A DNA stretch of 34,983 nucleotides from Nitratiruptor tergarcus DSM 16512 (GTDB taxonomy: Bacteria; Campylobacterota; Campylobacteria; Campylobacterales; Nitratiruptoraceae), in assembly GCF_027946175.1 (NCBI RefSeq), contig NZ_AP026672.1, positions 1 through 34,983 on the forward strand, given 5' to 3'. This document shows positions 1 to 27,699 of this stretch, in pieces. Both the position numbers and the translations under genes were made by a program. The notes beneath the pieces were generated by a model that ran no database searches, was not told the origin of the DNA, and saw nothing but the letters and a program-made list of their open reading frames with translations. Numbering within the stretch: the stretch's first letter is position 1; every line of letters begins with the position of its first letter.

Positions 1-614
1 ACACAATGTTGCTCGTAAAATAGCTGGGCAGTCATATAATATCAATGGATATTTTGTCTACTATGGAGATTCAAATCCAGAGAATTATGATCCTTATGCC
101 TGGATATATGTAAGTAAATATGGATCTTTTGTAGCCAAACTAGATGGATTTGATGGAACATATCTTCGCTGGGTAAGATTAAATTCTAATAAGATGCATA
201 TCAAAACATTAGAATCTGTATTGATAGAGAATGGAAAAATCACTTTTGGAAATGCTCTTGAACAAAACAGCTCTCAATCCTCTAGTGATAGCGTGAGAAC
301 ACTGCAGCTTATCCAGAAGGCACACAATGTTGCTCGTAAAATAGCTGGGCAGTCATATAATATCAATGGATATTTTGTCTACTATGGAGATTCAAATCCA
401 GAGAATTATGATCCTTATGCCTGGATATATGTAAGTAAATATGGATCTTTTGTAGCCAAACTAGATGGATTTGATGGAACATATCTTCGCTGGGTAAGAT
501 TAAATTCTAATAAGATGCATATCAAAACATTAGAATCTGTATTGATAGAGAATGGAAAAATCACTTTTGGAAATGCTCTTGAACAAAACAGCTCTCAATC
601 CTCTAGTGATAGCA
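1..614 (+). repeat. 321-bp coding tandem repeat, copies 2 and 3
   Basis: The sequence starting at base 1 recurs from base 322, a period of 321 bp or 107 codons. The copy starting at 34663 precedes these by exactly 321 bp if the ends are joined. The copies look identical by eye over their shared length and diverge only at about 614, where the Ser tract begins. Such identity points to recent duplication or ongoing homogenisation. The repeat explains why the assembly broke here. Confidence 0.9.
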
Positions 615-859
615 GCAGTTCATCAAGCAGCAGTTCATCAAGCAGCAGTTCATCAAATAGCAGTTCATCAAGCAGCAGTTCATCAAGCAGCAGTTCATCA
701 AGCAGCAGTTCATCAAGCAGCAGTTCATCAAGCAGCAGTTCATCAAGCAGCAGTTCATCAAGCAGCAGTTCATCAAGCAGCAGTTCATCAAGCAGCAGTT
801 CATCAAGCTCTGTGGAGTCATCTCAAGAGAGTGTGAACGGAGCTATACCTCATGTATAG
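1..859 (+). CDS. Giant Ser-rich exoprotein A, C-terminal part (continues from 32996-34983 across the circle)
   Basis: The reading frame is open from base 2 and closes at TAG 857-859. The frame and the sequence continue exactly from the gene that starts at 32996 and runs off the right end, giving a joined product of 948 aa. This part holds two of three copies of a 107-residue unit containing the GYFxxYG...AWIY...KLDGFDGTYLRW domain, also found in the 3908 exoprotein and the subtilisin. A tract of 13 five-Ser units follows, one of them with an Asn. The C-terminus is GAIPHV, a member of the short tail motif shared by five proteins here. No membrane anchor follows, so secretion rather than anchoring is likely. 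The exact number of 321-bp repeats may be wrong if the assembly collapsed them. Its role is unknown; a secreted, possibly glycosylated surface or matrix protein is inferred. Confidence 0.8.
   Translation, partial: HNVARKIAGQSYNINGYFVYYGDSNPENYDPYAWIYVSKYGSFVAKLDGFDGTYLRWVRLNSNKMHIKTLESVLIENGKITFGNALEQNSSQSSSDSVRTLQLIQKAHNVARKIAGQSYNINGYFVYYGDSNPENYDPYAWIYVSKYGSFVAKLDGFDGTYLRWVRLNSNKMHIKTLESVLIENGKITFGNALEQNSSQSSSDSSSSSSSSSSSSSSSNSSSSSSSSSSSSSSSSSSSSSSSSSSSSSSSSSSSSSSSSSSSSSSSSSSSVESSQESVNGAIPHV
611..805 (+). repeat. 15-bp microsatellite-like repeat encoding poly-Ser
   Basis: Thirteen tandem units of AGCAGCAGTTCATCA, each encoding five Ser. One unit carries AAT for Asn. All units stay in frame, so gain or loss of units changes tract length without frameshift. 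The same unit occurs near 34233-34260 and 34552-34580. Confidence 0.95.
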
Positions 860-3762: not shown

Positions 3763-3795
3763 AAAAAAGAGGGGGTTCCCCTCTTTTATATTTTC
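3763..3795 (+). terminator. Rho-independent terminator after the surface-protein gene
   Basis: A perfect 10-bp stem, AAAAGAGGGG (3765-3774) with CCCCTCTTTT (3778-3787), and a 3-base loop, followed by a T-rich run. It is the clearest terminator in the window. It separates the abundant surface protein from the giant exoprotein gene. Confidence 0.85.
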
Positions 3796-3907: not shown

Positions 3908-6778
3908 ATGAGAATTTTACTGGGACTCCTTTTTGTTATAGCTACTTTAAGTGCTGAGTATTACCCTTCTTATCATCAGCTGGCTCCTACTAAAGGCCTT
4001 GTCAATGAGCTCAAAAATTTTACTATTAAAAACTTTTCTTTTTATAATGAATCTATAAGGTTTTCTGTTTATGGAGAAGCAAAAAAATACAAAAACAAAT
4101 GGTGTGGAAATAAATTTTATAATTTGAAAGTTTATGTGCCTAAAGGGATAAAAAAAACTTATATTACGATGACTCCTATACCAAATAGTAGCTATTTTGT
4201 TCTTGCTAAATTTATTCCACAAAATGCTCGTTTACCCGAAGGTTATACTATAGACTGGACAAACCCACAGGAGACAAAAAGTACAGATCAAGCAGATTAC
4301 TTTAGTGATAGACCCTATCTTATATGGGCACGTCATGGAGGTATACTGTTTGAGTTTCCAAGGTTCAAAGATACGATCTTACATCCAGAAATTTTGGAAA
4401 ATTTTCCTGGTGGCTGGATATATTTCAAAATCATTCAAGCATCGCAATTTGTAAATTCGCAATTCGGCCATATCGATAATCCTTCAATGGGTTTTGCTGT
4501 AAAATATTATTATGATAAGAGCTATAAAGAGTCTTTGAAAGATTTTCTTAAAACCACGAAATTTGATCCTCAAACGGGTGATCCTATTGACCACTTTTTG
4601 CAGATCCAGGAGAAAGCGCCAACCTGTAATAATTATGGTGCTTTGAGTACAATAAGTGGTGTTCCTGATAGCGATATTACGGGATATGAGTTTCAGTATG
4701 GTATTACACGGGATCCAAATCTTCCTGTACTCGATGTCGGTGCAGATAAAACAGCTATAAAAACTGGCGATAGTATCAACGTTAAAGCCACTGTCAATGT
4801 TGGTAATAAACCATTGCAAGGTGTACAGAATATAATCGATGTAGAACTCAATCAAAATACTACTGTGTCTAAAACAGGAATATTGTTAACAAGTGATCTT
4901 GGTTGTGCAAAATTACAAAATATCCAAATAAGTGATGATTTACAAAAAGGAGAGATACTCTATTCTGATAACGGTAACAACTGGTATAAAGAGAAAAACA
5001 ATAGTGCTATAGCTGGAAATATTCAATATGTTGGATATTTTATAGAAAATGGTGTTGACGTTAACAAAAAGATTACAATGGATATTATAGCAAAAATAGA
5101 TGATAGCTGTACGCCAAAAAATATTTTTACTTTGCAATATAGGTTGGATAATGGAGATGTAAAAGAGCTTACAAAATCGCTCTATTTTTCTCGAGCAGAA
5201 ACTACAACAAGTGGAGGAGATTCTTATACAGGCGGTAGCGCATATACTCTATCACAGTCAATGATTTCAACAAGCAGTTCAAGTGGTACAAAATCGAGGG
5301 CACAAATATATTGCGAGAGCCATGGTGGAACGTGGGCTGATGGAACATGTTTGAGTGGTAAGAAGACCCCTGTAGAAGATACATCTCACATAGACAGCAC
5401 TCAAGATTTTCCATCTATGAATGAAAATACAAGTATTTCAAGCAGTTCAAGTGGTACAAAATCGAGGGCACAAATATATTGCGAGAGCCATGGTGGAACG
5501 TGGGCTGATGGAACATGTTTGAGTGGTAAGAAGACCCCTGTAGAAGATACATCTCACATAGACAGCACTCAAGATTTTCCATCTATGAATGAAAATACAA
5601 GTATTTCAAGCAGTTCAAGTGGTACAAAATCGAGGGCACAAATATATTGCGAGAGCCATGGTGGAACGTGGGCTGATGGAACATGTTTGAGTGGTAAGAA
5701 GACCCCTGTAGAAGATACATCTCACATAGACAGCACTCAAGATTTTCCATCTATGAATGAAAATACAAGTATTTCAAGCAGTTCAAGTGGTACAAAATCG
5801 AGGGCACAAATATATTGCGAGAGCCATGGTGGAACGTGGGCTGATGGAACATGTTTGAGTGGTAAGAAGACCCCTGTAGAAGATACATCTCACATAGACA
5901 GCACTCAAGATTTTCCATCTATGAATGAAAATACAAGTATTTCAAGCAGTTCAAGTGGTACAAAATCGAGGGCACAAATATATTGCGAGAGCCATGGTGG
6001 AACGTGGGCTGATGGAACATGTTTGAGCGATGGGAGCGATTCAAGTAGCTCTTCAAGCAGCAAACATCAAGTAGGCGATGAGATAAGTGGAGTGACTCAA
6101 GGAACCAACTCTTCAGTATCGAAAATCTTTACTATCGCTCAAAAGTTGGCAAAAAGAAGCTTGTCTATCGATGGTTATTTTGCCCATTATGGTTCTGGAT
6201 CTTTTGACTGGATGTATAGAAGTGCAAAGAGTGGAAAAGTCTATAAACTTGAAGGCATGGATAAGAACGGCTATTTTAAATGGACAAATTTAACCGATTT
6301 TTTCAGCAAATCTTATGTAAGAAATGGAAAGATCATCATAGGCTCTCTTAAATCTACAAGAGATGTCAATAATGAGAAAACTTCAGCATTTATCAAAGAT
6401 CTTGAAAATAAAGAATTCCCTATCGATGGTTATTTTGCCCATTATGGTTCTGGATCTTTTGACTGGATATATAAAAGTGCAAAGAGTGAAAAAGTTTGGA
6501 AACTTGAAGGTATGGATGAGAGCGGCTATTTTAAATGGACGAAATTAACAGACTATTTCAATGAAATTAGAGTGCAAGACGATAAAATTATAATTGGTAA
6601 TGCTTTTGAAGAGACCTCTTCTGATACAACATCTTCTTTAAGCAATTCTGTTAGATCAGAAAGCTCTATTTCTTCAAGTTTATCACAAAGTAGTAGCTCT
6701 TCAAGCTCTACTCATTCGAGCTCATCAAGTATGCAAAGTAGCTCATCAAATAGTGTAAGTACTTTTCCAAGCATTTAA
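3908..6778 (+). CDS. Giant Ser/Cys-repeat exoprotein B
   Basis: A 956-aa protein with a signal peptide (about 1-16, TLSA-EYY). Residues 17-450 form a beta-rich region matching exoprotein A (32996): GGWIYFKIIQASQ against GGWLYISFAQAD, and FDPQTGDPIDHF against FDRYGDPVENF. Residues 456-707 hold four full and one partial 56-residue repeats, each with four Ser, a C-E-S-H-GG-T-W-A-D-G-T-C motif and DFPSM. Then come two GYFAHYGSGSFDW...KLEGMD..GYFKW domains (about 757-818 and 842-903), a Ser-rich tail, and the C-terminus STFPSI. No anchor is seen. The gene runs into the subtilisin gene with an 11-bp gap, which suggests the protease acts on it or travels with it. It is inferred to be a type II secretion substrate and possible O-glycosylation target. 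Confidence 0.75.
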   Translation: MRILLGLLFVIATLSAEYYPSYHQLAPTKGLVNELKNFTIKNFSFYNESIRFSVYGEAKKYKNKWCGNKFYNLKVYVPKGIKKTYITMTPIPNSSYFVLAKFIPQNARLPEGYTIDWTNPQETKSTDQADYFSDRPYLIWARHGGILFEFPRFKDTILHPEILENFPGGWIYFKIIQASQFVNSQFGHIDNPSMGFAVKYYYDKSYKESLKDFLKTTKFDPQTGDPIDHFLQIQEKAPTCNNYGALSTISGVPDSDITGYEFQYGITRDPNLPVLDVGADKTAIKTGDSINVKATVNVGNKPLQGVQNIIDVELNQNTTVSKTGILLTSDLGCAKLQNIQISDDLQKGEILYSDNGNNWYKEKNNSAIAGNIQYVGYFIENGVDVNKKITMDIIAKIDDSCTPKNIFTLQYRLDNGDVKELTKSLYFSRAETTTSGGDSYTGGSAYTLSQSMISTSSSSGTKSRAQIYCESHGGTWADGTCLSGKKTPVEDTSHIDSTQDFPSMNENTSISSSSSGTKSRAQIYCESHGGTWADGTCLSGKKTPVEDTSHIDSTQDFPSMNENTSISSSSSGTKSRAQIYCESHGGTWADGTCLSGKKTPVEDTSHIDSTQDFPSMNENTSISSSSSGTKSRAQIYCESHGGTWADGTCLSGKKTPVEDTSHIDSTQDFPSMNENTSISSSSSGTKSRAQIYCESHGGTWADGTCLSDGSDSSSSSSSKHQVGDEISGVTQGTNSSVSKIFTIAQKLAKRSLSIDGYFAHYGSGSFDWMYRSAKSGKVYKLEGMDKNGYFKWTNLTDFFSKSYVRNGKIIIGSLKSTRDVNNEKTSAFIKDLENKEFPIDGYFAHYGSGSFDWIYKSAKSEKVWKLEGMDESGYFKWTKLTDYFNEIRVQDDKIIIGNAFEETSSDTTSSLSNSVRSESSISSSLSQSSSSSSSTHSSSSSMQSSSSNSVSTFPSI
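5273..6028 (+). repeat. 168-bp coding tandem repeats (4.5 copies)
   Basis: Units start at 5273, 5441, 5609, 5777 and 5945, a period of 168 bp or 56 codons. The copies look identical by eye. The last ends after the second Cys of the Cys motif. Each full unit contains the CxxxGGxWxxxxC motif and DFPSM. Confidence 0.95.
6166..6600 (+). repeat. 255-bp-spaced duplicated GYF/DWIY domain
   Basis: A stretch of about 50 bp starting TATCGATGGTTATTTTGC recurs nearly identically at 6421, 255 bp on. It encodes IDGYFAHYGSGSFDW in both copies. The flanks have diverged more, so the duplication is older than the 168-bp repeats or the core is under selection. Confidence 0.85.
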
Positions 6779-6789
6779 GAGAATAAAAA

Positions 6790-8607
6790 GTGAGATATTT
6801 CCTTCTTGCTTTTCTCCTTCTCCCCCTCTTTGGGTGGGAGTATTACACTCACGGATCTTTACAAACTCTCACCCCTCTACCTAACCATACTCGCTCTCTT
6901 AATATACACTATTTCAAAGATACGAAAGAGAGAACCATTGGTGCTACCAATCGCATTATTTTGAAAAAAAGAGATAAATGTGCCAACAAATGGCTTGCAA
7001 GATATCCTTACAAAGAACTTCAAAACGGTGATATACTACTTTTTACGAAAAATATAGAGGAGACTTTTACTGTAGCCAAAGAGCTCTATGAGAGTGGATG
7101 TGTCTATTTTGCTCATCCGGACTTTTTGGTTCCCATAAAGATGAGAAGTTATGATCCTCTTTTTTCTCAACAGTGGAATTTTTACAATATAGGCCAAGGC
7201 TACTCTGTGCCAAATGTTGATCTCAATGTGTATGAAGCGTGGCAGTATGCAACAGGGAGAGGTGTCAAAGTAGCCGTGATTGATAACGGCTTCGATTTAG
7301 GACACGAGGATCTTCAAGGTGCCTTTGTAGACCAAATAGATTTGGTAGATAACGACAACAATGCTTCATTTGATAACAATTTCGAACTTCACGGCACTGC
7401 ATGTGCTGGACTTATAGCGGCGAGAAAAAATGGCAGAGGAGTGCAAGGGACTGCCTATGATGCAGCTCTCATTGGTATAAAGCTTATCGGTAATTATCCA
7501 GATGGAAGTGAGAAGTCTCTTTTTGTCTCCTCTATTGTGGCAGCTTTTTGGTATGCCAAGAGTCATGGGGCGGATGTGATTAATTGTAGCTGGGGAACAT
7601 ATGATGTAGCAGATGCAGTGAGAGATGCGATAAATGATGTTGCCTATAATGGAAGAGATGGAAAAGGAACAGTTATTGTCTTTGCAAGTGGAAATGAAGG
7701 AAGGGGAGACTGGTTTTGGGGAAATGATGAATCGGCTCTTCCCTCTGTTTTGGCAATAGGTGCTGTAACCAATCTTGGAGATGTTGCGTGGTATAGTAAT
7801 TATGGCCCAGAACTTGATTTTGTTGCCCCAAGTGGCGGAGGAACCCTTCGCATAGCTACTACAGATATTAGAGGAGTTTTTGGATATGCAGATGGTTCCT
7901 TTGGTCATCCAGACTACTGTTATGCTACAGATACGACAGGATTCAATGGTACTTCTGCAGCAGCTCCTCAAATAAGTGGAGTTGTCGCTTTGATGTTGCA
8001 AAGAGATCCAGAGCTTACAAGAGATAAGATAGTAGCTATTTTGAAACAGACTGCAAGAAAAATAGGTGGTGATATTTATGACGAACAAGGACACAATGAC
8101 TATTTTGGTTATGGTCTTGTAGATGCTAAAGCAGCTGTAGAAGAGGTGATACGAAGAAAGGTGCAAAAAGATGTAGTCAACAAAACTTTTGCTCTTAGTG
8201 GCTATTTTTTCCATATAGGAGATGGAAAATTTGATTGGATATATGTAAGCAAAAATCTAAAGTTTGTTTGTAAGTTGGAAGGCATGGATGAACATGGATA
8301 CCTTCGATGGAATATTTTGCAATCTTCAAAAAAAAGAGGTTTTGATACTATCTCTTTAGATGGTCCCGTCATAACTTTTGGCAAGAGTTTGCAAACAGGA
8401 GCTTTATATCAGCAACTTGCTCATAGAAGTTTTGTTATAGATGGAGATTTTGTCCATTATAGTACAGGGGCATATGAGTGGATTTATATAGATAAAAATT
8501 CCTTGAAAAGTTTTAAGCTTGAAAGATTGAGTTATACTGGCTCATTTCTTTGGATTCCTCTAGATCTTTCATCTTATATAGAAAATGACAAAGTATCATT
8601 TAAATAG
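6790..8607 (+). CDS. Secreted subtilisin-like serine protease (S8) with two C-terminal GYF/DWIY domains
   Basis: A 605-aa protein starting at GTG 6790, with a signal peptide ending near FGW-E. Residues about 45-115 look like an inhibitory propeptide, ending CVYFAHPDF. The catalytic domain spans about 145-455. Asp165 (AVIDNGFD), His201 (HGTACAG), the oxyanion Asn302 (ASGNEG) and Ser389 (GTSAAAP) are all present, so the enzyme should be active. Two copies of the domain shared with exoproteins A and B follow at about 462-512 and 545-590, the second more divergent (EWIY, KLERLSYTG). It lacks the FPxI-type tail. It lies 11 bp after exoprotein B and is probably cotranscribed with it. Subtilisins with propeptides are common type II secretion cargo. 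Maturation of the exoproteins is a reasonable but unproven role. Confidence 0.92.
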   Translation: MRYFLLAFLLLPLFGWEYYTHGSLQTLTPLPNHTRSLNIHYFKDTKERTIGATNRIILKKRDKCANKWLARYPYKELQNGDILLFTKNIEETFTVAKELYESGCVYFAHPDFLVPIKMRSYDPLFSQQWNFYNIGQGYSVPNVDLNVYEAWQYATGRGVKVAVIDNGFDLGHEDLQGAFVDQIDLVDNDNNASFDNNFELHGTACAGLIAARKNGRGVQGTAYDAALIGIKLIGNYPDGSEKSLFVSSIVAAFWYAKSHGADVINCSWGTYDVADAVRDAINDVAYNGRDGKGTVIVFASGNEGRGDWFWGNDESALPSVLAIGAVTNLGDVAWYSNYGPELDFVAPSGGGTLRIATTDIRGVFGYADGSFGHPDYCYATDTTGFNGTSAAAPQISGVVALMLQRDPELTRDKIVAILKQTARKIGGDIYDEQGHNDYFGYGLVDAKAAVEEVIRRKVQKDVVNKTFALSGYFFHIGDGKFDWIYVSKNLKFVCKLEGMDEHGYLRWNILQSSKKRGFDTISLDGPVITFGKSLQTGALYQQLAHRSFVIDGDFVHYSTGAYEWIYIDKNSLKSFKLERLSYTGSFLWIPLDLSSYIENDKVSFK

Positions 8608-8630
8608 CAAGAAAAAAATCCCGAGTTTGC

Positions 8631-8636
8631 TATAAT
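8631..8636 (+). promoter_or_regulatory. -10 box of glycosylation cassette
   Basis: TGC followed by TATAAT (8631-8636). The expected transcript start near 8643 leaves only a short leader before ATG 8655, and no ribosome site is visible, so initiation may be nearly leaderless. Confidence 0.5.
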
Positions 8637-8654
8637 TATGCAAAAAAGTTGTTC

Positions 8655-10088
8655 ATGGAAGCATTGAAAAAAAATAGTATCTTTATTGCTTTTTTACTTC
8701 TACTTGGATTTTTCACCTACTTTTATAACTATCAAAATCCTCCTAAACAGTTTTGGGATGAAAATTATCATATTGCTTCAGCCCAAAAATATATTGATCA
8801 TGTAATGTTTATGGAACCACATCCTCCACTTGGAAAGATGCTTATAGCTTTGGGAGAAGTACTCTTGCATCCAAACAAAAATATAGACAAGAGTTCTTTT
8901 GACAAAACAGACTATATCAAACATTTCCCAAAAGGGATGAGTTATGCAGGATATCGCTTTTTCCCAGTTCTTTTTGCATGGTTTAATGTAGCTCTATTTT
9001 TTTTGATTTTATATGAGCTTACCAAGAACTCATGGATCTCATTTTTTGGTTCATTTCTTTATCTTTATGATAACGCCATTATTGTCCATAGCCGCGCTGC
9101 AATGCTTGAATCTATACAGCTCTTTTTTGTATTTGCTGCAATCTATTGGTTTGTCAAAAAATATAATGAATCAAAAGGCATTAAAGACTATCTCATTTTA
9201 GGTATTATAAGTGGCTTTGCGCTAGCTGTAAAAGCAAACAGTGCTATTTTATTTCTTTTGTGGGTATTATGGGTATTTAAAGATCTACGCTTGGGTGAAC
9301 GTATAAAACTTTTAACAAAAAGTATTAGCTATTTCGGTGGAGCAGCAGTAATATTTTTGAGCGTATTCTATCTCCATTTTGCTCTTGGGCAAAAAGTAAT
9401 AGACAATCGCTACTATGCAGCCTCGAAGGAATATAAAGAAATTATAAAAAAGGGAGAAACCGCCAATCCAAAATATTTTTGGATTATGTTAAGAGATAAT
9501 CTCAAATATATGAGTAATTACCAAAAGGGAGTACCAAGGCTGAATCTCTGTAAGCCTGGTGAAAATGGATCGCTTTTTATAGGATGGCCTCTTGGTATCA
9601 AAGCTATTAGTTATCGTTGGGAAAAGCATGGAAGTAAAGTGCGCTATATTTATTTGCAAGGAAATCCTGTAACATGGATGATAGGATTTATTGCAGTGAT
9701 TTTAAGCGGAGTACTTGTTTTAGCAGTATTTCTCTTTGGATTGCCGATAAGAAATCGCAAAATATTTGAGTATATTGTTGGATTTTTCTTTATCTATATC
9801 TCTTACATGATAGCTGTGGGGCAGATTCCAAGGGTGATGTATCTCTATCACTATTTTATACCTCTTACAATAAGCTATATCTTAGCGGTATTGCTTTTAT
9901 GGTATCTCTATGAAGAGGAGATCAGGGCAAAAAGCAAAATTGTGTGGTCAAGTATCATCATGATAGCTGCTGCTATCGTCTTTACATGGTGGTTCTTTAG
10001 TCCATTTACCTACTACAAGCCTCTTAATACGCAAGAATTCAATAAAAGGGTATGGTTTGACTACTGGAAGCTTCATGCGATTCGATAA
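8655..10088 (+). CDS. GT39-family protein mannosyltransferase-like glycosyltransferase
   Basis: A multi-spanning membrane protein (477 aa from ATG 8655; a TTG at 8649 would add two residues). The first lumenal loop has FWDENYHIASAQKYI, with the acidic Asp-Glu pair of PMT/GT39 enzymes, then EPHPPLGKMLIALGE. SRAAMLESIQLFF is also a family hallmark. Many hydrophobic segments follow. Enzymes of this family move a sugar from a polyprenyl-phosphate donor onto Ser/Thr on the outer face of the inner membrane. It heads a compact cassette with a GtrA flippase and a donor-making GtrB-like enzyme. The Ser-tract exoproteins nearby are the obvious candidate acceptors (inference). A lipid or glycan acceptor, as for ArnT-type relatives, cannot be excluded. 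Confidence 0.8.
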   Translation: MEALKKNSIFIAFLLLLGFFTYFYNYQNPPKQFWDENYHIASAQKYIDHVMFMEPHPPLGKMLIALGEVLLHPNKNIDKSSFDKTDYIKHFPKGMSYAGYRFFPVLFAWFNVALFFLILYELTKNSWISFFGSFLYLYDNAIIVHSRAAMLESIQLFFVFAAIYWFVKKYNESKGIKDYLILGIISGFALAVKANSAILFLLWVLWVFKDLRLGERIKLLTKSISYFGGAAVIFLSVFYLHFALGQKVIDNRYYAASKEYKEIIKKGETANPKYFWIMLRDNLKYMSNYQKGVPRLNLCKPGENGSLFIGWPLGIKAISYRWEKHGSKVRYIYLQGNPVTWMIGFIAVILSGVLVLAVFLFGLPIRNRKIFEYIVGFFFIYISYMIAVGQIPRVMYLYHYFIPLTISYILAVLLLWYLYEEEIRAKSKIVWSSIIMIAAAIVFTWWFFSPFTYYKPLNTQEFNKRVWFDYWKLHAIR

Positions 10089-10659
10089 GCGCTGGGGACT
10101 TTTTGCTTTTGCTTTTACTCTTTGGCTATGGATAGGCTATAGTATTTATATCCACAGCGCAAAAAAGATTTTTAAAGTAACTATAATTCACTCCTCAAAA
10201 CCTCTACATACACTCAATGATAAAATCTATCCGGATAAAAAAGAGATGATATGGGTAGAGAAGATTTTCTTTCCAAGAGGAAATGAGTTAAAACATCCAA
10301 CATATGGGTATCTTGGTTATAAAAAAAATTTTGTCATGAGAATAGATGGTGATTTTTTACTTTCCAAAGATGCACCTCTAAAATTTGTGCTTTATTCTGA
10401 CGATGGGGTGCGTCTTGTCATCGATGGAAAAAATGTGCTTGAATTTTTACAAAATAGACCTTTTGGAAAAAGCGAGGGGATCATCTATCTTAAAAAAGGG
10501 AAACACCATCTCCATATCGACTACTTTCAAGGGTACGGGCAGCTCGGTTTAGTTGGATACTATGCTGTTTTAAACGGTTTAAAACAAATAATAAGTGATA
10601 ACAACAGTTTAAAACTTCTTGGAAATAACTCTCAAATAATAAAGTTTATAGAGCAATGA
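10075..10659 (+). CDS. Membrane-anchored PA14-like domain protein
   Basis: A 194-aa protein starting at ATG 10075, preferred because GGAAG stands 6 bases upstream. It overlaps the GT39 gene by 14 bp. One N-terminal membrane segment (about residues 8-26) is followed by a periplasmic domain with FVLYSDDGVRLVIDGKNVLE and GKHHLHIDYFQGYGQLGLVGYY. This is the SDDG...L.IDG...Y.G.G pattern of PA14 beta-barrel domains, which often bind sugars. In this cassette it may present the glycan acceptor or assist the GT39 enzyme. The PA14 match is by eye. Confidence 0.65.
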   Translation: MRFDKRWGLFAFAFTLWLWIGYSIYIHSAKKIFKVTIIHSSKPLHTLNDKIYPDKKEMIWVEKIFFPRGNELKHPTYGYLGYKKNFVMRIDGDFLLSKDAPLKFVLYSDDGVRLVIDGKNVLEFLQNRPFGKSEGIIYLKKGKHHLHIDYFQGYGQLGLVGYYAVLNGLKQIISDNNSLKLLGNNSQIIKFIEQ

Positions 10660-11021
10660 TAGGAAGATTTTTTATCGTTGGAGCTATCTCCACAGCTGTA
10701 GACTATGTGTTTTACTCTTTACTGGTTTTTTTGGGTGTGCACTACGCTTTGGCAATTATCATTGGATATATGATGGGGCTTGTGGTCAATTTTTTCTTAG
10801 CAAGAAAAACTGTCTTTACCAAAGGAAGTAGATTTGAAAAAGTACATCATGAGTTTTTAGCTGTATTTGGTGTTTCAGTATTGGCTGTGGGGCTCAATAT
10901 TTTGATCGTCTGGGCTTTGGCAAAAATAGGGCTTGACTACTATAGCGGTAGAGCAGTAGCATTGGTGGTTGTATTCTTCTTTAATTACTATGCAAGAAAA
11001 GGGTTTATCTATGTTGCATAA
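10656..11021 (+). CDS. GtrA-family membrane protein (putative polyprenyl-phosphate sugar flippase)
   Basis: A 121-aa protein with four membrane segments. It has the GtrA features RFFIVGAISTAVDY at the start, MGLVVNFFLARKTVF in the middle and FFFNYYARKGFIY at the end. GtrA proteins are proposed to flip polyprenyl-phosphate-linked sugars to the periplasm. ATGA overlap with the gene before and an 11-bp overlap with the GtrB-like gene after indicate one operon. Confidence 0.85.
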   Translation: MIGRFFIVGAISTAVDYVFYSLLVFLGVHYALAIIIGYMMGLVVNFFLARKTVFTKGSRFEKVHHEFLAVFGVSVLAVGLNILIVWALAKIGLDYYSGRAVALVVVFFFNYYARKGFIYVA

Positions 11022-11961
11022 AACATTTACATTGGCTATGGTGGTACCTTGCTACAATGAAGAGGAAGTATTGCCAAAAACAAAAAAGGAGTTAGAAAAA
11101 CTTCTCCACATTCTCATCGAAAAGGGGCTCATTTCACAAGAGAGCTTCATCTGCTTTGTAGATGATGGAAGCAAAGATAAAACTTGGAATCTCATAGAAG
11201 ATTTTGCAAAAGAGTCTCATATAAAAGGACTTAAGCTCTCGCGCAATTTTGGCCATCAAAATGCCCTTCTTGCAGGACTTTTCTATGCAGAAGAGCTTTG
11301 CGATGCAGCGGTTAGCATGGATGCAGATTTGCAAGATGATATAAGTGTAGTAGAACAGATGTGCCAAAAATATTATGAAGGGTATGAAATCGTTTATGGA
11401 GTGCGTAAAAAAAGAGATACCGACACCTTTTTCAAAAGAGCTACTGCAGAAGGCTTTTACAAACTCATGCGCTGGATGGGAGTCGATATTATAGAAAATC
11501 ATGCAGATTTTCGCCTCATGAGTAAAAGAGCGCTATCTTGGCTTAAAGAGTTTGAAGAAGTTAATCTATTCCTACGAGGAATCATCCCTCTTATCGGCCT
11601 TAAAAGTGATATCGTTTATTATGATAGAAAAGAGCGCTTTGCAGGAGAAAGCAAATATCCTCTCAAAAAAATGCTAGCATTTGCATGGGATGGGATCACA
11701 TCATTTTCCGTAGTCCCTCTTCGATTTATCACGATACTCGGAATTATCGTATTACTACTTAGTTTTGCGCTTTCCGTGTGGACAGTTGGAGCGAAACTGA
11801 GTGGAGTAGCAGTGTCTGGATGGACATCGATGATGCTCATTGTCCTCTTTTTAGGGGGTGTGCAGATGCTATCTATTGGTATCATTGGAGAATATATCGG
11901 TAAAATATATAAAGAGACAAAAAGAAGACCGAGATTTTTTGTAGAGAAAATAGAGCCATAA
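11011..11961 (+). CDS. GT2-family polyprenyl-phosphate glycosyltransferase (GtrB/DPM1-like)
   Basis: A 316-aa protein from ATG 11011, chosen because AAAAGGG stands 8 bases upstream; in-frame starts further up lie inside gtrA. The GT-A domain shows VVPCYNEEEVLP, VDDGSKDKTW and the metal-binding DADLQDD. SRNFGHQNALLAG and ENHADFRLMS are typical of the GtrB/DPM1 group. Two C-terminal membrane segments (about 230-300) anchor it. It should make the polyprenyl-phosphate-hexose donor that GtrA flips and the GT39 enzyme uses. The sugar (glucose or mannose) cannot be told from sequence. Confidence 0.88.
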   Translation: MLHKTFTLAMVVPCYNEEEVLPKTKKELEKLLHILIEKGLISQESFICFVDDGSKDKTWNLIEDFAKESHIKGLKLSRNFGHQNALLAGLFYAEELCDAAVSMDADLQDDISVVEQMCQKYYEGYEIVYGVRKKRDTDTFFKRATAEGFYKLMRWMGVDIIENHADFRLMSKRALSWLKEFEEVNLFLRGIIPLIGLKSDIVYYDRKERFAGESKYPLKKMLAFAWDGITSFSVVPLRFITILGIIVLLLSFALSVWTVGAKLSGVAVSGWTSMMLIVLFLGGVQMLSIGIIGEYIGKIYKETKRRPRFFVEKIEP

Positions 11962-11972: not shown

Positions 11973-12587
11973 CTATATATGAGGAAGTGCTGATACTTCT
12001 CCATATTGAGGAGTACGCACCTTTGTATTTATAGTGTTTTTATTGAAATCTATTGTCACATTTAGTCTTTCACCATTTTGTACACTTGGTAAATCATCCA
12101 TAAAAGTTGCTGGGATCTCTTTTATTTCATGGGTATTTCGTTTAATGATTCTAAGCTTTATGTCAGGTTTTCCAAGAAGCTCTTTTGGAACTTTAAGATA
12201 AAAAAAGCTATTATCTATTTTACCTGTAACAGGGATATAGTGCTGAGGATTACTAGTTGGCTTAATATTTTTATCTTCCGGATTAGGATCAATTAATTCT
12301 ATATAATATTTACCTCCATGATCCCTAGATATTGCTTTAATCGTTGTATCTATAGGCTTTTTCTTTACTATATTCTTTTTCTTTTCTCTTTTTATGTCAA
12401 CTGCTTCTTTCTTTTTATTAGAGTGCAAAGTAATTTTTATAGATGGCTCCGAAGAAGATGAATTTTGAAGAAAATTATTTTGAGAATCATCTAAGGAAAC
12501 AGATGAAGATGGATTGTAAAAAAAGATAAAAAGTATTAAGAAAATACTACCAATTGCTATTCCAAAAAGAATCAAACTCTTATTCAT
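11973..12587 (-). CDS. Inner-membrane-anchored periplasmic protein with ALPHI tail (paralogue of 16728-17324)
   Basis: A 204-aa protein with one N-terminal membrane helix (about 5-25), a Ser-rich then Lys-rich linker (about 28-80), and a compact domain with ELIDPNPEDKNIK, YIPVTGKIDNSFFYLKVPKE and KPDIKLRI. The C-terminus is EVSALPHI. The paralogue beside gspG shares NPEDRNIK, EGKVSGKEFVMRVPK and KPDVKLRI, and ends PFPGIR. It is not recognised as a known family. An accessory part of the secretion machine, or a protein bearing the same tail as the cargo for competition or display, are both possible. It is convergent with the GtrB-like gene (11-bp gap) and divergent from rep1. Confidence 0.6.
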   Translation of the reverse strand: MNKSLILFGIAIGSIFLILFIFFYNPSSSVSLDDSQNNFLQNSSSSEPSIKITLHSNKKKEAVDIKREKKKNIVKKKPIDTTIKAISRDHGGKYYIELIDPNPEDKNIKPTSNPQHYIPVTGKIDNSFFYLKVPKELLGKPDIKLRIIKRNTHEIKEIPATFMDDLPSVQNGERLNVTIDFNKNTINTKVRTPQYGEVSALPHI

Positions 12588-14541: not shown

Positions 14542-15762
14542 TCACCCTTGGATATTGATAGAGAAGATTGGCAAGAGCATGGCGGTAATAATAAAACCTA
14601 TAATGCCTCCAACTATGAGCATCAGTGCTGGCTCGAGCAAGGATAAGAAGATAGCGATTTTATCTCTATTCTCTTCAAGATAGAGCTCAGAGAGGTTCTT
14701 GAGAATTACTGGTACCTGGCTTGTCTCCTCGCCAAGAGCAATCGCCTGGATAAAAGATCTATCTATAATATTGTCATGCTTAATTAAAGCATTGGAAAAT
14801 TTTGAGCCTTCTACCACTTTTTGAGCTGCTTCATCAAAAATCTTTTGAATAACAGAGTTTTTTAGTATTTTTGATGAGAGGCTGATCGCTTGCACAAAGG
14901 GTATACCAGACTGCAAAAGCACAGAGGCCATATAGGAAAATCGTGCAAGTTCTGAGACCTGAATAATTTTTCCAAGAATAGGGAGCTTGAGCATTAATAG
15001 ATCCACCATATATTTAAAGCGGCTGTTGTAGCGTAGCAGCAGTGAAAAGAGGATTGTGATAATGAGCAATCCTATACCAAGCTCCATCCAGTAGGATTTG
15101 AAAAAGTTGCCAAAATCTACAACAAACTGTGTAATTGGAGGAAGCTCTTGCTTCATCTGCACAAAAATAGAGGTAATCTTTGGCACTACATAGCTGATCA
15201 TAAATCCAACCATAAAAATGGAGACAATAATGATGAAGAGAGGATAGGCAAAGGCGCTTTGTATCTGCTTATTAATACGATCTTGTTCTTTTAAGAATGT
15301 AGCAAGCTCGTTAAGCACCTCTTCAAGGGTTCCGCTCTCTTCTGCAACCTTTATAGACTGTTTGTAGAAATTTGGTAAATCAATGATAGATTGGGCTTCC
15401 AAAGCCTGATAAAAACTCTTTCCTTCATCAAGATAGGTGATGACTGAGGAGAGAAAATTGTAGATCTTTTTGTTGCTGGCATACTGGCTTTGTGCTAGGC
15501 GCAAAGCATTTGCTATAGGAATACCTGCTTTAAGGTAGATAGAAAGATCGCGGCTCAGAGTTGCTAGCTCAAGGTTCGATAGAGAAATTTTTCTTTTAAA
15601 AGAAAAATTTCCAAAAAGAGATGGTGAGGTCTCTTTGATGGAAGTAAAAAGGATATTGCGTGATTGCAACCTCGTTTTTGCATCTGCTAAATCTGTAGCC
15701 TCTATAACGCCTTTGACCTGCTTACCACTTTTTTTATCAATACCTTTGTACTTAAAAATCAT
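14542..15762 (-). CDS. gspF: Type II secretion inner-membrane platform protein GspF
   Basis: A 406-aa protein from ATG 15762 (MIFKYKG). It has two GspF/PilC domains, each with the family's helical core. LSRDLSIYLKAGIPIANAL and IKVAEESGTLEEVL mark the first copy, ARFSYMASVLLQSGIPFVQAI and IALGEETSQVP the second. Three hydrophobic segments are visible (about 165-190, 215-240, 375-400). Length is typical of GspF. It lies 8 bp after the minor pseudopilin gene and ends a four-gene minus-strand operon. It should bridge the GspE ATPase to the pseudopilus base. Confidence 0.93.
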   Translation of the reverse strand: MIFKYKGIDKKSGKQVKGVIEATDLADAKTRLQSRNILFTSIKETSPSLFGNFSFKRKISLSNLELATLSRDLSIYLKAGIPIANALRLAQSQYASNKKIYNFLSSVITYLDEGKSFYQALEAQSIIDLPNFYKQSIKVAEESGTLEEVLNELATFLKEQDRINKQIQSAFAYPLFIIIVSIFMVGFMISYVVPKITSIFVQMKQELPPITQFVVDFGNFFKSYWMELGIGLLIITILFSLLLRYNSRFKYMVDLLMLKLPILGKIIQVSELARFSYMASVLLQSGIPFVQAISLSSKILKNSVIQKIFDEAAQKVVEGSKFSNALIKHDNIIDRSFIQAIALGEETSQVPVILKNLSELYLEENRDKIAIFLSLLEPALMLIVGGIIGFIITAMLLPIFSINIQG

Positions 15763-15770
15763 CCTCTGCC

Positions 15771-16316
15771 TTAAAAGTTGTATTGACTTGAATCTGTTGG
15801 GATCCACTCACTTGGATCAAAATATTTTTGTGCTTCACTAATAGAATCAACTACTTTTACTGGCTTCATATAGGCATAAAAGATATAAAATTTATCTTTA
15901 TACTCTACAATGTAACTGGAATTACTACCATTTGAAAAGAGTTCATAGGCAAAGCACACCTCTTGGGGATTACCATTTGCATCAAAAAGTGGAGGAAATT
16001 TTACAGGAGATAAAATACCATGAATATCAAAATCGTATACACTTACCTCTTTATCAAAAAACCCCTCTATCTTGTCTCTTCTTATTCCATCTATAAAAAT
16101 ATAGCACTCTTGACACTTATTGATGCAAGTAATTTTTGCACTTTCATTAAAATCATACTCCTCAAAAAGAGTCTTTATATCTTGCAGACCCAGTGACTTT
16201 GATAGATGCTCTTTGGTGTGAAGCTTTTGAATAAAGACACCATAAAGAATGGAGATAATAAGAATGACAATGAGAAGCTCAAAAAGTGTAAAACTACTTT
16301 TTGAGACAATCTTCAT
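15771..16316 (-). CDS. Minor pseudopilin, probably GspH-like
   Basis: A 181-aa protein with a prepilin N-terminus, SS-FTLFELLIVILIIS, with Glu at position +5. The residue before the cut would be Ser rather than the usual Gly. Beyond the helix (about 9-35) there is a globular domain with four Cys, including CINKCQEC near residues 59-66. By position next to gspG it is most likely GspH, but the globular part is not diagnostic. It overlaps gspG by 23 bp. Confidence 0.7.
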   Translation of the reverse strand: MKIVSKSSFTLFELLIVILIISILYGVFIQKLHTKEHLSKSLGLQDIKTLFEEYDFNESAKITCINKCQECYIFIDGIRRDKIEGFFDKEVSVYDFDIHGILSPVKFPPLFDANGNPQEVCFAYELFSNGSNSSYIVEYKDKFYIFYAYMKPVKVVDSISEAQKYFDPSEWIPTDSSQYNF

Positions 16317-16716
16317 AACTTATATCTTTGTTTTCATCTTTCCCGCCCTCTTTGCCATCTGCTCCAAGGGAAATGAGATTAAAGCCATCTTCTTTTTTGA
16401 CATAGATAAAAGGGTGTCCCCATGGATCTTTTGGTAGCTGGCCGTTAGAGAGGTAGCCTTTAGCAGAGTAGTTAGGGTACTTCTCTGGATCTGGATTTTT
16501 TATAAGTGCTTGGATGCCCTCTTCGGTATCTGGATAGTTTCCATTATCGAGCTTAAACATCTTGAGAGCCTGAGCAACACTCTGCATCTGTACACACACT
16601 AACTTTTGTTTTGCTTCTTCACTTTTTCCAATCAGATTTGGGAGCACAAGTGAAGCCAAAAGGCCAAGAATGATGATAACAATCATAAGTTCCATCAAAG
16701 AGAACGCTTTTTTCAT
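16294..16716 (-). CDS. gspG: Major pseudopilin GspG
   Basis: A 140-aa protein. The prepilin peptide MKKA precedes FSLMELMIVIIILGLLASLV, with Glu at +5 and Ala before the cut. The body has the GspG hallmarks NYPDTEEGIQALI, LPKDPWGHPFIYV and LISLGADGKEGGKDENKDI, the last being the calcium-binding loop region of GspG. Length is standard. It forms the main shaft of the pseudopilus. No prepilin peptidase is on the plasmid, so processing must use a host enzyme. Confidence 0.95.
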   Translation of the reverse strand: MKKAFSLMELMIVIIILGLLASLVLPNLIGKSEEAKQKLVCVQMQSVAQALKMFKLDNGNYPDTEEGIQALIKNPDPEKYPNYSAKGYLSNGQLPKDPWGHPFIYVKKEDGFNLISLGADGKEGGKDENKDISYEDCLKK

Positions 16717-16727: not shown

Positions 16728-17324
16728 TTAACGTATACCAGGGAAAGGAGAGCGTTCCTCTGGCATTTTTGTTTGGGTTTGTATATTATCGGGATGATCA
16801 AAATCGATATCTACACGAAACTGGCTTCCTTGTTCTAAAGAAGCAGCTTCGGAGAGAAAAGATGCATCTAAAGTTTTAGACTCTTTTGTTTCGAGATGAG
16901 TAATGCGTAACTTCACATCAGGTTTATCAAGCACAACTTTTGGCACACGCATAACAAACTCTTTTCCACTCACTTTTCCCTCTATATAGGTATAACTGCT
17001 TGGATCTTTTTCCAATTTGATATTTCTATCTTCTGGGTTTTCATCAACAACTTGAATGAGATAGGTGTGGTAATGATCTATGGTGGCAGCTTTAATAGAA
17101 GGGTCTATCTTTCTTTGGGGCTTCGCTTTTTTTTTCTCTTTTTTGATAGAAGAGCTACTCTTTGTTTGCTTTTTTATGGTGATATCTTCTTCAACGGAAT
17201 TGGTAGATGTTTGCTTCATTGATGTCAAAGGAGATGTATCGTTCTTTGGTGAATAGAGAAAAATCCCCAGTCCTAAAATAAGGACAGCTGCACCAATACC
17301 CAGGATAACAATATTTTTACTCAT
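16728..17324 (-). CDS. Inner-membrane-anchored periplasmic protein with PFPGIR tail, first gene of the gspG operon
   Basis: A 198-aa protein with one membrane helix (about 5-24), a Ser/Lys-rich linker and a folded domain sharing DENPEDRNIKLE, EGKVSGKEFVMRVPK and KPDVKLRI with the 11973-12587 protein. The C-terminus SPFPGIR varies the tail motif by one extra Arg. It lies 11 bp before gspG and heads that operon, so it is probably a dedicated part of this secretion system. It does not match GspA, B, H or S in any way I can see. Confidence 0.6.
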   Translation of the reverse strand: MSKNIVILGIGAAVLILGLGIFLYSPKNDTSPLTSMKQTSTNSVEEDITIKKQTKSSSSIKKEKKKAKPQRKIDPSIKAATIDHYHTYLIQVVDENPEDRNIKLEKDPSSYTYIEGKVSGKEFVMRVPKVVLDKPDVKLRITHLETKESKTLDASFLSEAASLEQGSQFRVDIDFDHPDNIQTQTKMPEERSPFPGIR

Positions 17325-17374: not shown

Positions 17375-18271
17375 TTGAAAAAATCTATCGTTTTACTCAT
17401 TACACTCGCTCTTATCGTTGCTATCTCCTCTCTTATCTACATAGGGTTCGAACTTGTAGACAAAAGTGCAAAAACAGTAGAAGGGAAGCATAATTTTCTC
17501 CAAAGCGTCTCTATGATCAACGATATCAAAAAAATCCTTGAACAAAACAAAAAAGATATTAATAGCACAGATGGTCTTGATCTACTCTTTTCTATGCCTA
17601 TCGATCTTAAGGCTGAAAATATAACAGTACATGTAGAGTTCTCTTCTGCAGCCACCGGCATAAACCCCAATAACTTTGTAAAAACCGTTAATAAAAAACA
17701 GCTTATCAATTCCCACTATATACTTTTATTCGATAGAATTTTGCAAAATGCAAATGTGCTCAACAAAGAGCTCTTTTTAGCGATGATTGAAGATACACTT
17801 GATAAAGATTTGGAAGAGCGATTTCCAGGAAGTGAGATAGCTCTCTATGACAGAAGATTTGCTCAAGGAAGTATTGAAAATTTTCAAAAGTTTCAAAAAA
17901 TCATAGAACACTATATAACATTGACACAAGATGGTAATATCAATAAAATCCCATGGGTAAAAATCTTAGGGTTTTTTAGTAAAAAAATAGATTTTAACTA
18001 TATCAATCCTATACTTTTACACTATATGCTTCCTTTCCTAGACAAGGAAGCATTGCAAAAACTTACAACAGACAAAGAAGGGGTATTTACAAAAATGAAA
18101 GAGCTGCATCTTTCAAAAGAGGATAAAGAGGAATTGAAAAAATATGATATTGCTTTTTATGTTCCTGTTATCAAAGTAGATCTTGAAATTGAAGAGAGAA
18201 GCAACAAAAGTTTTGCTCATTTCATTTATGACTTAACAACAGCAAAGGTGAAAGATATTGCAATTAGATAA
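17375..18271 (+). CDS. gspK: GspK-like minor pseudopilin
   Basis: A 298-aa protein starting at TTG 17375. It has an N-terminal hydrophobic helix (about 4-25) and then a soluble domain. GINPNNF (after SAAT), a helical LFLAMIEDTLD, and ERFPGSEIALYDRRFAQGSIENFQKF recall the GspK pattern of IN-N, a D-D pair and NG-L-S-DEL. The typical conserved prepilin cleavage motif is weak, as is common in GspK. Identity is supported by its place directly before gspL, as in canonical gsp operons. It should cap the pseudopilus tip with GspI and GspJ. Confidence 0.72.
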   Translation: MKKSIVLLITLALIVAISSLIYIGFELVDKSAKTVEGKHNFLQSVSMINDIKKILEQNKKDINSTDGLDLLFSMPIDLKAENITVHVEFSSAATGINPNNFVKTVNKKQLINSHYILLFDRILQNANVLNKELFLAMIEDTLDKDLEERFPGSEIALYDRRFAQGSIENFQKFQKIIEHYITLTQDGNINKIPWVKILGFFSKKIDFNYINPILLHYMLPFLDKEALQKLTTDKEGVFTKMKELHLSKEDKEELKKYDIAFYVPVIKVDLEIEERSNKSFAHFIYDLTTAKVKDIAIR

Positions 18272-19169
18272 CATCTTTTTTCTCGATAAAGACACAAAAA
18301 ACCTTCCCATTGCGAAAAAAGCAATTTTAATACTCTCTCCAGCCTTTTATTGGTTCCACAAAGAGAAACTTGATATCTCTTTATCTCAAGCAAAAAAAAT
18401 AGTACCATCAATCTTTGAAGGAATCATTCCTTCTGGTGAATATAGCTATTGGGTACAAAAAGTGGAAGATGAGTATTGGTTTTTTGCTTACAGCGATCAA
18501 GCAGTTCTCAATAAACTCTCTTCGCTCAATATCAAACCATCACAAATAGCAAAGATTTATCCAGCACAGCTCCTCTTTTATAACCTAAAAAATCCTGTGC
18601 AAATAGAGGATAAAGTTATTGTACAAGAAGAGGGATCTGTAATTGTATTACCCAGAAATATTTTTCAAAACGATACCACTCCTTTGGATGCAGTTTCTTT
18701 AGAGCTACCAAAGAGGTCTTTGCCTTTAAAAGCTTATGGAAGCTCATGGCTCTCTGAAGAATTTATTTATAAAGCTGTTATTGTCCTTTTCATTTTCATT
18801 TTAGCCTATACCGTTCAAGTGTTTGTTTTCAAAAAAGATTTAGCAAAGCTCTACTCCCTTGAGAATCAAATAATAGCAACCTATCACCTTCCTCAAACAT
18901 CTTTTCAGATAAAAAACATTCTTTCGTCTTTAGAGAAAGTACAAAAAGAGCAACTAAGCACCAGAAAAGAAATTGACTATATTCTACGCACTCCTTTGAA
19001 GAAAAATGAATATTTCATAAAATTCGATCTTTCAAAAAATATTCTTTTTGAAATTATGCTCTCAAATGCGAAGAGAGCACAAGAACTTAAAAACTACTTT
19101 ACAAAAGGGTTGAGAGTAAAGGATATGACACTCGATGGCAAAAAATTTATTGTAAAGTGTAGCAGATGA
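18258..19169 (+). CDS. gspL: GspL-like inner-membrane protein
   Basis: A 303-aa protein from TTG 18258, overlapping gspK by 14 bp. The N-terminal cytoplasmic region (about 1-165) would bind GspE. One membrane segment (about 170-192, YKAVIVLFIFILAYTVQVFVF) leads to a periplasmic coiled coil and a small ferredoxin-like domain. Sequence identity to known GspL is low, and the call rests on topology and gene order K-L-M-N-C-D-E. Confidence 0.68.
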   Translation: MQLDNIFFLDKDTKNLPIAKKAILILSPAFYWFHKEKLDISLSQAKKIVPSIFEGIIPSGEYSYWVQKVEDEYWFFAYSDQAVLNKLSSLNIKPSQIAKIYPAQLLFYNLKNPVQIEDKVIVQEEGSVIVLPRNIFQNDTTPLDAVSLELPKRSLPLKAYGSSWLSEEFIYKAVIVLFIFILAYTVQVFVFKKDLAKLYSLENQIIATYHLPQTSFQIKNILSSLEKVQKEQLSTRKEIDYILRTPLKKNEYFIKFDLSKNILFEIMLSNAKRAQELKNYFTKGLRVKDMTLDGKKFIVKCSR

Positions 19170-19573
19170 ATAGAATAAATCCATTCTATATACTTCTCTT
19201 TTTGCTTATTGTTTTTGGGATTACTTTGCTACAAAATTTTAAACTCAAAAAAGAGCTCTCCATACAAAATCAAAAAGTAGAAGAGATGAAAAAAGTAGCT
19301 ATAAAGATGAACACTCTTAAAAACTACTGGGGTGATAAGAAAAAACAAAAAAGCAGAGTCTTAGCGCTTCTCAAAGAACCATTTGTGGCAAAGTTTTTAA
19401 AAGATGCTCATAAAAATGTGGATCGTTACAAAGTATTTTTAGAAAATGTAGATGCTAAGAGTGCAGATCTTATCTTCAATAAAATACTCAATGAGTTTAT
19501 CAAAGTAAACAGCATACAAATAAAAAGAAAAAATCAAAAGAGTATAAATATACAGATGGAGTTTAAACTTTGA
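19166..19573 (+). CDS. gspM: GspM-like inner-membrane protein
   Basis: A 135-aa protein with one N-terminal membrane helix (about 7-22), a coiled coil (LKKELSIQNQKVEEMKKVAI) and a small C-terminal alpha/beta domain. This is the GspM layout, and it overlaps gspL by 4 bp. It should pair with GspL at the platform. The call rests on topology and position. Confidence 0.65.
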   Translation: MNRINPFYILLFLLIVFGITLLQNFKLKKELSIQNQKVEEMKKVAIKMNTLKNYWGDKKKQKSRVLALLKEPFVAKFLKDAHKNVDRYKVFLENVDAKSADLIFNKILNEFIKVNSIQIKRKNQKSINIQMEFKL

Positions 19574-20088
19574 AAAAATTGCTCAAGTGGATTGCGTACT
19601 TGCTACTTTTTGTACTCTTTTTTATCATTTTTACACCAAAAACGAGACTCTATTATGGACTTGAAAAAGCTCTCTATCCTTCACAGATTATCGTATCTGA
19701 TGAAAAAATTCGCGAGACTCCTGTCTCCTTGCATATAGAAAATGGTAAGCTCTTTTTTAAAGATATAGAGATGGGAGAGTTTGAGCACATTGCAATCTAT
19801 CCCGATATCTTTTTTAATCTTCTCAAAATCGAACATTTTCAAAAAAATAGAGAGATATCCTTGCTCCCTAATATTACACTTACTAATCTCACCATCTTCT
19901 ACACCCCTTTTTATCCAATAAAAGCATGGATCAAAGGGAAGAGTTCTTTGGGCAGCATCAAAGGGTATGTCAATCTACGCCAAAGGAGGGTACAGATAGA
20001 TCTTTTTGCTTCCAAATTGCCTGGACAGCTTCAAAGCTTGATGAAAAAAATCAAAGAGGGTCAATACCGGTATGAATATAGCTATTAA
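19570..20088 (+). CDS. gspN: GspN-like protein
   Basis: A 172-aa protein from TTG 19570, overlapping gspM by 4 bp. It has an N-terminal membrane helix (about 5-22) and a periplasmic beta-rich domain with SLHIENGKLFFKDIEMGEFEHIAI, resembling the GspN pattern. It is shorter than the roughly 250 aa of enterobacterial GspN. Its place between gspM and gspC supports the call. Confidence 0.6.
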   Translation: MKKLLKWIAYLLLFVLFFIIFTPKTRLYYGLEKALYPSQIIVSDEKIRETPVSLHIENGKLFFKDIEMGEFEHIAIYPDIFFNLLKIEHFQKNREISLLPNITLTNLTIFYTPFYPIKAWIKGKSSLGSIKGYVNLRQRRVQIDLFASKLPGQLQSLMKKIKEGQYRYEYSY

Positions 20089-26614: not shown

Positions 26615-27058
26615 ATGATGAAAAAAGCATTTACTATCATTGAAGTAATGATTGCTGTGATGATTTTAGCTCTTGTTGGAACTGCTCTTTTAAAAAATGC
26701 AGGAGCAGGATTAGATTTCATGCAAAAAATATCAAAAAAAGAGCAAGTGATTGATAGTATAAGTGTGGTAGTTGCTCACAGAAATCCAGATTTCAATCAC
26801 CTCAAAAAATCTCTTTATGATTTTGTTGAGCAAGAATTTTTGATAGATGATATTGAACTACTCAAAATTTTAAAAGGAAAAAAATTTCTTTATCAAGAAA
26901 GCGAAGCAAAAATCTCTCTTCCAACTTTAGAAGGTTTTTCTCAACAATTTGTGGAAGAAGAGGAGAAAAATCAAGCAAATCTTTTGAATTTTACTTTTAC
27001 GAAAATCTCTATCCAAGGTAATGGTGGAGATCATCTTTTTGTAGTGGATGCGATGTGA
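26615..27058 (+). CDS. Minor pseudopilin GspI-like
   Basis: A 147-aa protein. The prepilin peptide MMKKA precedes FTIIEVMIAVMILALVGTALL, with Glu at +5 and Ala before the cut. The pattern E-VMIA-MIL-L resembles GspI. The Cys pair sometimes seen is absent. It overlaps the next pseudopilin gene by 4 bp, as gspI and gspJ usually do. It should help form the pseudopilus tip. Confidence 0.72.
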   Translation: MMKKAFTIIEVMIAVMILALVGTALLKNAGAGLDFMQKISKKEQVIDSISVVVAHRNPDFNHLKKSLYDFVEQEFLIDDIELLKILKGKKFLYQESEAKISLPTLEGFSQQFVEEEEKNQANLLNFTFTKISIQGNGGDHLFVVDAM

Positions 27059-27657: not shown

Positions 27658-27699
27658 TTTTAGAAATTGCATAAAATCCCCTATAAAAGGAATAAAGTT

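Follow-up and report, generated by a model that had tools for sequence, protein, structure and literature searches.

A plasmid-borne GT39-PA14-GtrA-GtrB cassette of Nitratiruptor as a predicted O-glycosylation module for serine-tract proteins of a type II secretion system

The plasmid and its four-gene cassette

The second contig of the genome of the deep-sea vent bacterium Nitratiruptor tergarcus DSM 16512 (G000), which was analysed over its whole length of 34,983 bp and is called here the window, carries at positions 8655-11961 of the plus strand a cassette of four overlapping genes for a predicted protein glycosylation pathway. An open reading frame (ORF) for a serine-rich protein runs without a stop across both ends of the window, which therefore corresponds to a complete circular plasmid. 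In the paper on the Nitratiruptor genomes, the account of these plasmids is confined to their size and to the absence of prophage and restriction genes (PMC9723563). The first gene of the cassette (8655..10088) encodes a glycosyltransferase of the GT39, or protein O-mannosyltransferase (PMT), type. It is followed by the gene of a PA14 protein with an N-terminal transmembrane (TM) helix and a lectin-like β domain (10075/10081..10659), that of a GtrA-family protein with four TM segments, a putative flippase for polyprenyl-phosphate sugars (10656..11021), and that of a GT2 enzyme of the GtrB/PgfS type with a pair of TM helices at its C-terminus, putatively a synthase of polyprenyl-phosphate sugars (11011..11961; 76.1 bits). 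Pfam matches confirmed each of these four assignments, which had been proposed in the original prediction from the sequence alone. The PA14 protein, described there as fused into the operon, turned out to be the product of a separate gene that overlaps its neighbours. All four frames are open, adjacent ones overlap by 4-14 nt, and comparison with the YY09-18 plasmid gave dN/dS values of 0.04 for GT39, 0.20 for PA14, 0.11 for GtrA and 0.04 for GtrB, values that indicate purifying selection on every gene of the cassette.

Directly 5′ of GT39 lies the gene of an S8 subtilase (6790..8607, +), in an order S8-GT39-PA14 that is kept in the plasmids of YY09-18 and YY08-26 and in the genome G041, and before it that of a serine-tract exoprotein with a signal peptide and the C-terminus -STFPSI (3908..6778, +). 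A consensus scan, which counted no more terminators here than in shuffled sequences, listed a terminator-like hairpin at 3765..3787 (+) and none on the plus strand within 3908-11961, which suggests that the exoprotein, as the likely first gene, the subtilase and the four cassette genes form a single transcription unit.

The GT39 assignment proved to be genuine. The window protein scored 113.8 bits with the Pfam PMT model (cut-off 22.7) and 58.6 bits with PMT_4TMC (cut-off 32.4), and both domains were above cut-off in all six loci scanned, that is, the window and five distant ones. The DE (D35-E36) and HPP (H56-P57-P58) motifs are invariant across eight homologues; the former lies in the first extracytoplasmic loop and is reported to be essential to the activity of actinobacterial GT39 enzymes (PMC11727336). 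With a structure model of pLDDT 79, the top seven Foldseek matches were Pmt1, Pmt2 and Pmt4 proteins (TM scores 0.73-0.76), followed by oligosaccharyltransferases. Sequence and model thus place GT39 in the PMT class of protein glycosyltransferases, its acceptor being predicted. The actinobacterial Pmt equivalog of NCBIfam (PrMnsylTfPmt) was reached with only 22.8 of the required 800 bits and, as judged from sequence, GT39 is not an orthologue of that enzyme. No MIR domain, such as the long luminal loop of eukaryotic PMTs contains, was found: the alignment of GT39 with yeast Pmt1 falls into two parts and leaves out the MIR insertion, and that with Pmt4 also passes over this region.

The PA14 protein, with a Pfam score of 27.8 bits (cut-off 24), was modelled (pLDDT 90) as a TM helix followed by a PA14 β-sandwich, which matched the sugar-binding PA14 domains 6m8m and 6xa5 with Z values of about 17, the MpAFP PA14 lectin being among the matches. 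Its residues S106-D107-D108-G109 are invariant and compatible with an Asp-Asp site, calcium-dependent sugar binding being putative.

As for the lipid-linked donor, GtrA scored 73.4 bits with Pfam GtrA_DPMS_TM (cut-off 26.1). GtrB, with TM helices at 239-257 and 274-292, reached 231 bits against the solved undecaprenyl-phosphate (UndP)-glucose synthase GtrB (5ekp, SynGtrB), 133 bits against ArnC and 35 bits against dolichol-phosphate-mannose synthase. PgfS was its best NCBIfam model, although at 249 bits it stays outside the equivalog (cut-off 500). Because of this proximity to the UndP-glucose synthase and to PgfS, and not to the mannose synthase, mannose, the sugar that the original prediction had named for GT39 of actinobacteria and eukaryotes, is not favoured, and the donor sugar is likely a hexose. 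Counting its own genome, a GtrB with 57-90% identity was found in eight of the nine genomes with GT39, and none of the cassette type in seven control genomes lacking GT39, where the best match stayed below 95 bits. In G041, a gene for a GalE equivalog (435 bits, cut-off 262) follows PA14 at a distance of about 0.5 kb (L022 13416-14420).

Distribution and linkage with type II secretion and serine-tract proteins

A survey of 398 Campylobacterales genomes revealed this GT39 type in nine of them (at least 608 bits, the next score being 26), which represent five genera in five families, and the PA14 type in the same nine (at least 235 bits, next score 60), where it adjoins GT39 in every case, upstream of it in G445 and downstream in the others. 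Since the profile was built from these same loci, the strong part of the result is the absence of any orphan GT39 or orphan PA14 of this type among the 398 genomes. By this strict co-occurrence and adjacency, the PA14 protein is a stable and obligate partner of GT39. Searches among plasmids matched the two proteins in three Nitratiruptor plasmids only, and a scan of viral contigs gave no match for GT39. Patterns drawn from close relatives recovered three relatives among genome contigs, and presence outside Campylobacterota is possible. Other GT39 proteins of the phylum, with about 25% identity (L024-L026), lack a PA14 partner and were treated as an outgroup.

The same plasmid carries a type II secretion system (T2SS) comprising GspC, GspD, GspE, GspF, GspG and pseudopilins. 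The genes of gspF, a pseudopilin and gspG lie at 14542..16716 (-); those of GspK/L/M-like proteins (assigned by position), a GspN-like protein, GspC with a PDZ domain, GspD and GspE at 17375..24210 (+); and those of two further prepilin-type pseudopilins at 26615..27609 (+). GspD (387 bits, cut-off 351) and GspG (147.5 bits, cut-off 88.9) passed the NCBIfam equivalog thresholds, whereas GspE (584 against 630 bits) and GspF (293 against 424 bits) remained below theirs, although T2SS models were their best matches.

The claim that exported proteins of the plasmid hold hundreds of serines in tracts was borne out, with 147, 254 and 199 serines in three of them and runs of up to 51. Besides the exoprotein at the head of the transcription unit, they comprise a predicted lipoprotein with 254 serines and the C-terminus -SALPHL (27667..30039, +; likely start ATG 27703) and an exoprotein that continues through the origin (32996..34983 and 1..859, +), the second part of which holds the 51-serine run, encoded by a 15-bp tandem repeat, and ends in -NGAIPHV. 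In a chromosomal background sample of 400 kb (20 stretches of 20 kb), five serines in a row occurred in one of 391 ORFs.

Presence of GspD proved to be a weak test of co-occurrence, such a secretin being found in 206 of the 398 genomes, and T2SS loci with GT39 were instead contrasted with T2SS loci without it. With serine density scored in a 40-residue window, a serine-dense ORF was found near GT39 at five of six locus types and at one of 18 T2SS loci lacking GT39 (Fisher p 8e-4, a value that is indicative, since the density threshold was chosen once the data had been inspected and the loci are of unequal length). In G039 and G041, neither of the T2SS loci situated at a distance from GT39 had a serine-dense ORF. 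A degenerate DNA pattern for serine tracts (WSN repeats) was dropped for genome-wide use, because chance matches in the chromosome sample swamp short interrupted tracts. Most T2SS of the order occur without GT39, which makes the cassette an optional addition to this machinery.

Most of the GT39-PA14 loci also harbour T2SS genes and genes of serine-tract exoproteins, and the physical linkage between these elements takes several forms. In G472 only 13 bp separate the 3′ end of gspF from the GT39 ORF, whereas G039 has on one strand gspG, a pseudopilin and gspF, then GT39, PA14 and GtrB, and then a lipoprotein with serine tracts. A single 13-kb contig of G022 holds GT39-PA14, T2SS genes and a serine-rich lipoprotein. 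In G041 the S8-GT39-PA14 genes stand apart and the GtrB gene overlaps with T2SS genes of the pseudopilin and GspK-like kinds, while a protein of 1,622 residues with a long serine tract followed by TIPNFGG is encoded about 22 kb from GT39 (L053 13766-18634, -). Moreover, in a 27-kb Nitratiruptor sister plasmid (of G001) with related Rep and ParA proteins (72% identity), the cassette, the T2SS and the serine-rich ORFs are all missing together.

Also encoded near the T2SS or cargo genes of systems with GT39 is a family of TM-anchored accessory proteins. Two of them occur in the window, one at 11973..12587 (-), with the C-terminus SALPHI, and a second at 16728..17324 (-), which ends in -SPFPGIR. 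The C-terminal tag of the accessory protein matches a motif placed at the C-terminus of the cargo, or just after its serine tracts, at the same locus: SALPHI with SALPHL in the window, GAFEGI with GAFEGL in YY08-26 (L146), LPTGPG with LPAGPG in YY09-18 (L002) and DLPNFG with NLPNFG in G041. The match is clear in four of six loci (5 of 720 permutations), and the family, whose profile was read without the secretin matches that entered in round two through the secretin L131, did not appear at any of the 18 control loci. The shared tag might be explained by a receptor common to the cargo and the accessory protein; the GspC of the plasmid has a PDZ domain, but several tags lack a hydrophobic end of the PDZ type.

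Other features of the cargo genes were also observed. Perfect tandem repeats of 168 bp (4.5 copies) and 321 bp (1.9 copies), at 5271-6027 and 1-613, suggest a recent expansion. A repeat domain NGYFxxY...WIYxS...KLxGM is common to the serine-tract proteins at 3908-6778 and 32996-859 and to the C-terminus of the subtilase (6790-8607), and is a candidate for a common secretion or anchoring domain. Genes for a peptidyl-prolyl isomerase-like protein, a small lipoprotein and an exported protein of the MSLKK type occur twice in the same order (1034-3753 and 30137-32906), each copy being followed by a serine-tract gene, and a similar double set is present in L146. In other families, a small exported protein with PPMPP-like motifs at its mature start is encoded near GT39 (L021 6947-7408, L022 12927-13415, L023 5504-5905 and L017 5373-5798); it was not recognised in Nitratiruptor.

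A proposed glycosylation route and its alternatives

Altogether, these observations make it probable that the cassette is a dedicated periplasmic O-glycosylation module for serine-tract proteins that the T2SS of the same plasmid would export, the glycosylation itself being predicted. From what is known of their families, GtrB, working in the cytoplasm, would charge undecaprenyl phosphate with a sugar, and GtrA would aid the passage of the sugar-lipid across the inner membrane. The cargo would reach the periplasm via Sec, and GT39 would place the sugar on its serines at entry. The PA14 protein, anchored in the membrane, would probably bind sugar or the glycosylated serine tract beside the active site, thereby taking the place of the MIR domain, which in eukaryotic PMTs is part of that same loop; in this regard, we hypothesise that GT39 and PA14 make up a two-subunit enzyme. 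The coated proteins would then leave by the T2SS and, more speculatively, the sugar coat might shield very long serine tracts from proteases in vent fluid.

The coupling of GT39 with a type II cargo, which had been anticipated as new for Gram-negatives, is partly supported, in that several Campylobacterota families show GT39-PA14, GtrB, T2SS and serine-rich cargo in combination and the sister plasmid lacks them jointly; in the open-access papers searched, nothing relevant was found on an O-mannosyltransferase together with type II secretion. As this set of genes stays linked in distant relatives, a chance pairing seems unlikely. Beside the indicative nature of the p value above, some observations weigh against the proposed module. 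The genome G445 keeps GT39-PA14 without T2SS or serine-rich genes nearby, which makes the pairing strong but not absolute, the serine signal near the GT39 locus of G041 is weak (0.38), and G022, a genome 83% complete, yielded no strong GtrB. Moreover, GtrA and GtrB form the core of gtr cassettes that modify lipopolysaccharide (LPS).

This last point leads to the main alternative, a Gtr-type envelope-glycan cassette in which GtrA and GtrB would supply UndP-glucose and the GT-C enzyme would decorate a surface polysaccharide, LPS or another, in the manner of serotype conversion by phages and plasmids. The usual gtr layout is indeed GtrA-GtrB plus a GT-C protein, the cassette is borne by a plasmid, and its GtrB, closest to SynGtrB, matches the PHROG family 'GtrB-like O-antigen conversion' with 335 bits. 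The GT-C enzyme of the window, however, has PMT motifs, finds its best structural matches among protein glycosyltransferases and matches no phage family. To our knowledge, neither a lectin-type PA14 partner nor a linkage to T2SS and serine-tract cargo is part of gtr cassettes, and we regard this explanation as unlikely.

A second alternative accepts the protein glycosyltransferase and moves its targets: GT39 would act mainly on other envelope proteins, such as pseudopilins, the subtilase, TM accessory proteins or general lipoproteins, the serine tracts being unmodified spacers. The subtilase directly upstream of GT39 at four of the loci is in line with it, and the best hint in its favour is again G445. 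Serine-dense ORFs, however, follow GT39 rather than the T2SS, and among the targets of actinobacterial PMTs the longest Ser/Thr-rich linkers are the best modified (PMC11727336), so that we would give this option little credit. As for mere hitch-hiking of cassette, T2SS and serine-rich genes on plasmids without a joint function, linkage is cheap on small plasmids and that of Nitratiruptor reflects one replicon lineage, but its recurrence in other families with different gene orders, the operon-like overlaps and the location of the G041 case on a 109-kb contig with housekeeping genes render it very improbable.

A more specific version of the dedicated module can be put forward tentatively, with the odds somewhat against it: an undescribed two-subunit protein O-glycosyltransferase, made of GT39 and a PA14 lectin that acts in trans in place of MIR, would travel with a subtype of T2SS and coat serine-tract cargo marked by the short tag in common with the membrane accessory protein.

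Comparison with known glycosylation systems

Protein O-glycosylation by GT39 has so far been studied in a few actinobacteria and in eukaryotes, and a compact version encoded on a plasmid and coupled to a T2SS would offer a Gram-negative model of few genes, in which the function of the MIR domain may be suggested by what replaces it. It could also explain how proteins whose serine tracts are dozens of residues long are maintained and exported, and provides a candidate route for the glycosylation of chosen cargo.

A tie between periplasmic O-glycosylation and T2SS function is known from Vibrio cholerae, where PglL-type O-glycosylation affects T2SS output (PMC6901666); PglL is a broad oligosaccharyltransferase that acts en bloc, whereas the cassette would encode a single-sugar PMT tied to particular cargo. 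In function, a near precedent is the Pgf system of Streptococcus mutans (PgfS, PgfM1, PgfE and PgfM2), where PgfS and the PMT-family PgfM1 modify the neighbouring Cnm, which becomes sensitive to proteases after their loss (PMC5856776). Both systems pair the same type of GT2 donor synthase with a PMT-family membrane protein beside Ser/Thr-rich cargo, and the GalE epimerase gene soon after PA14 in G041 recalls pgfE in the pgf operon. In contrast to Pgf, the cassette is Gram-negative, linked to a T2SS and provided with an obligate PA14 protein and GtrA, its GtrB scoring well below the PgfS cut-off. With the actinobacterial and eukaryotic Pmt enzymes, GT39 shares both Pfam domains, the DE and HPP motifs and the fold, and differs from them by a long periplasmic loop without MIR insertion, a separate PA14 protein and a donor synthase of the GtrB type. 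The gtrA-gtrB-gtr(type) cassettes of serotype conversion likewise lie on mobile replicons and set GtrA and GtrB beside a membrane enzyme of the GT-C class; the third enzyme of the window is instead a PMT, with a PA14 partner and a linkage to protein cargo.

Serine-rich repeat glycoproteins are glycosylated in the cytoplasm by GtfA/GtfB and exported by SecA2/SecY2, the accessory Sec system. By analogy, the cassette also appears as a dedicated glycosylation of exported serine-tract proteins encoded beside a dedicated export route, although here the sugar would be added in the periplasm and export would proceed by the T2SS. If the two-subunit enzyme proves true, it would represent a Gram-negative line of glycosylating first and secreting afterwards, parallel to the Pgf and serine-rich repeat systems of streptococci.

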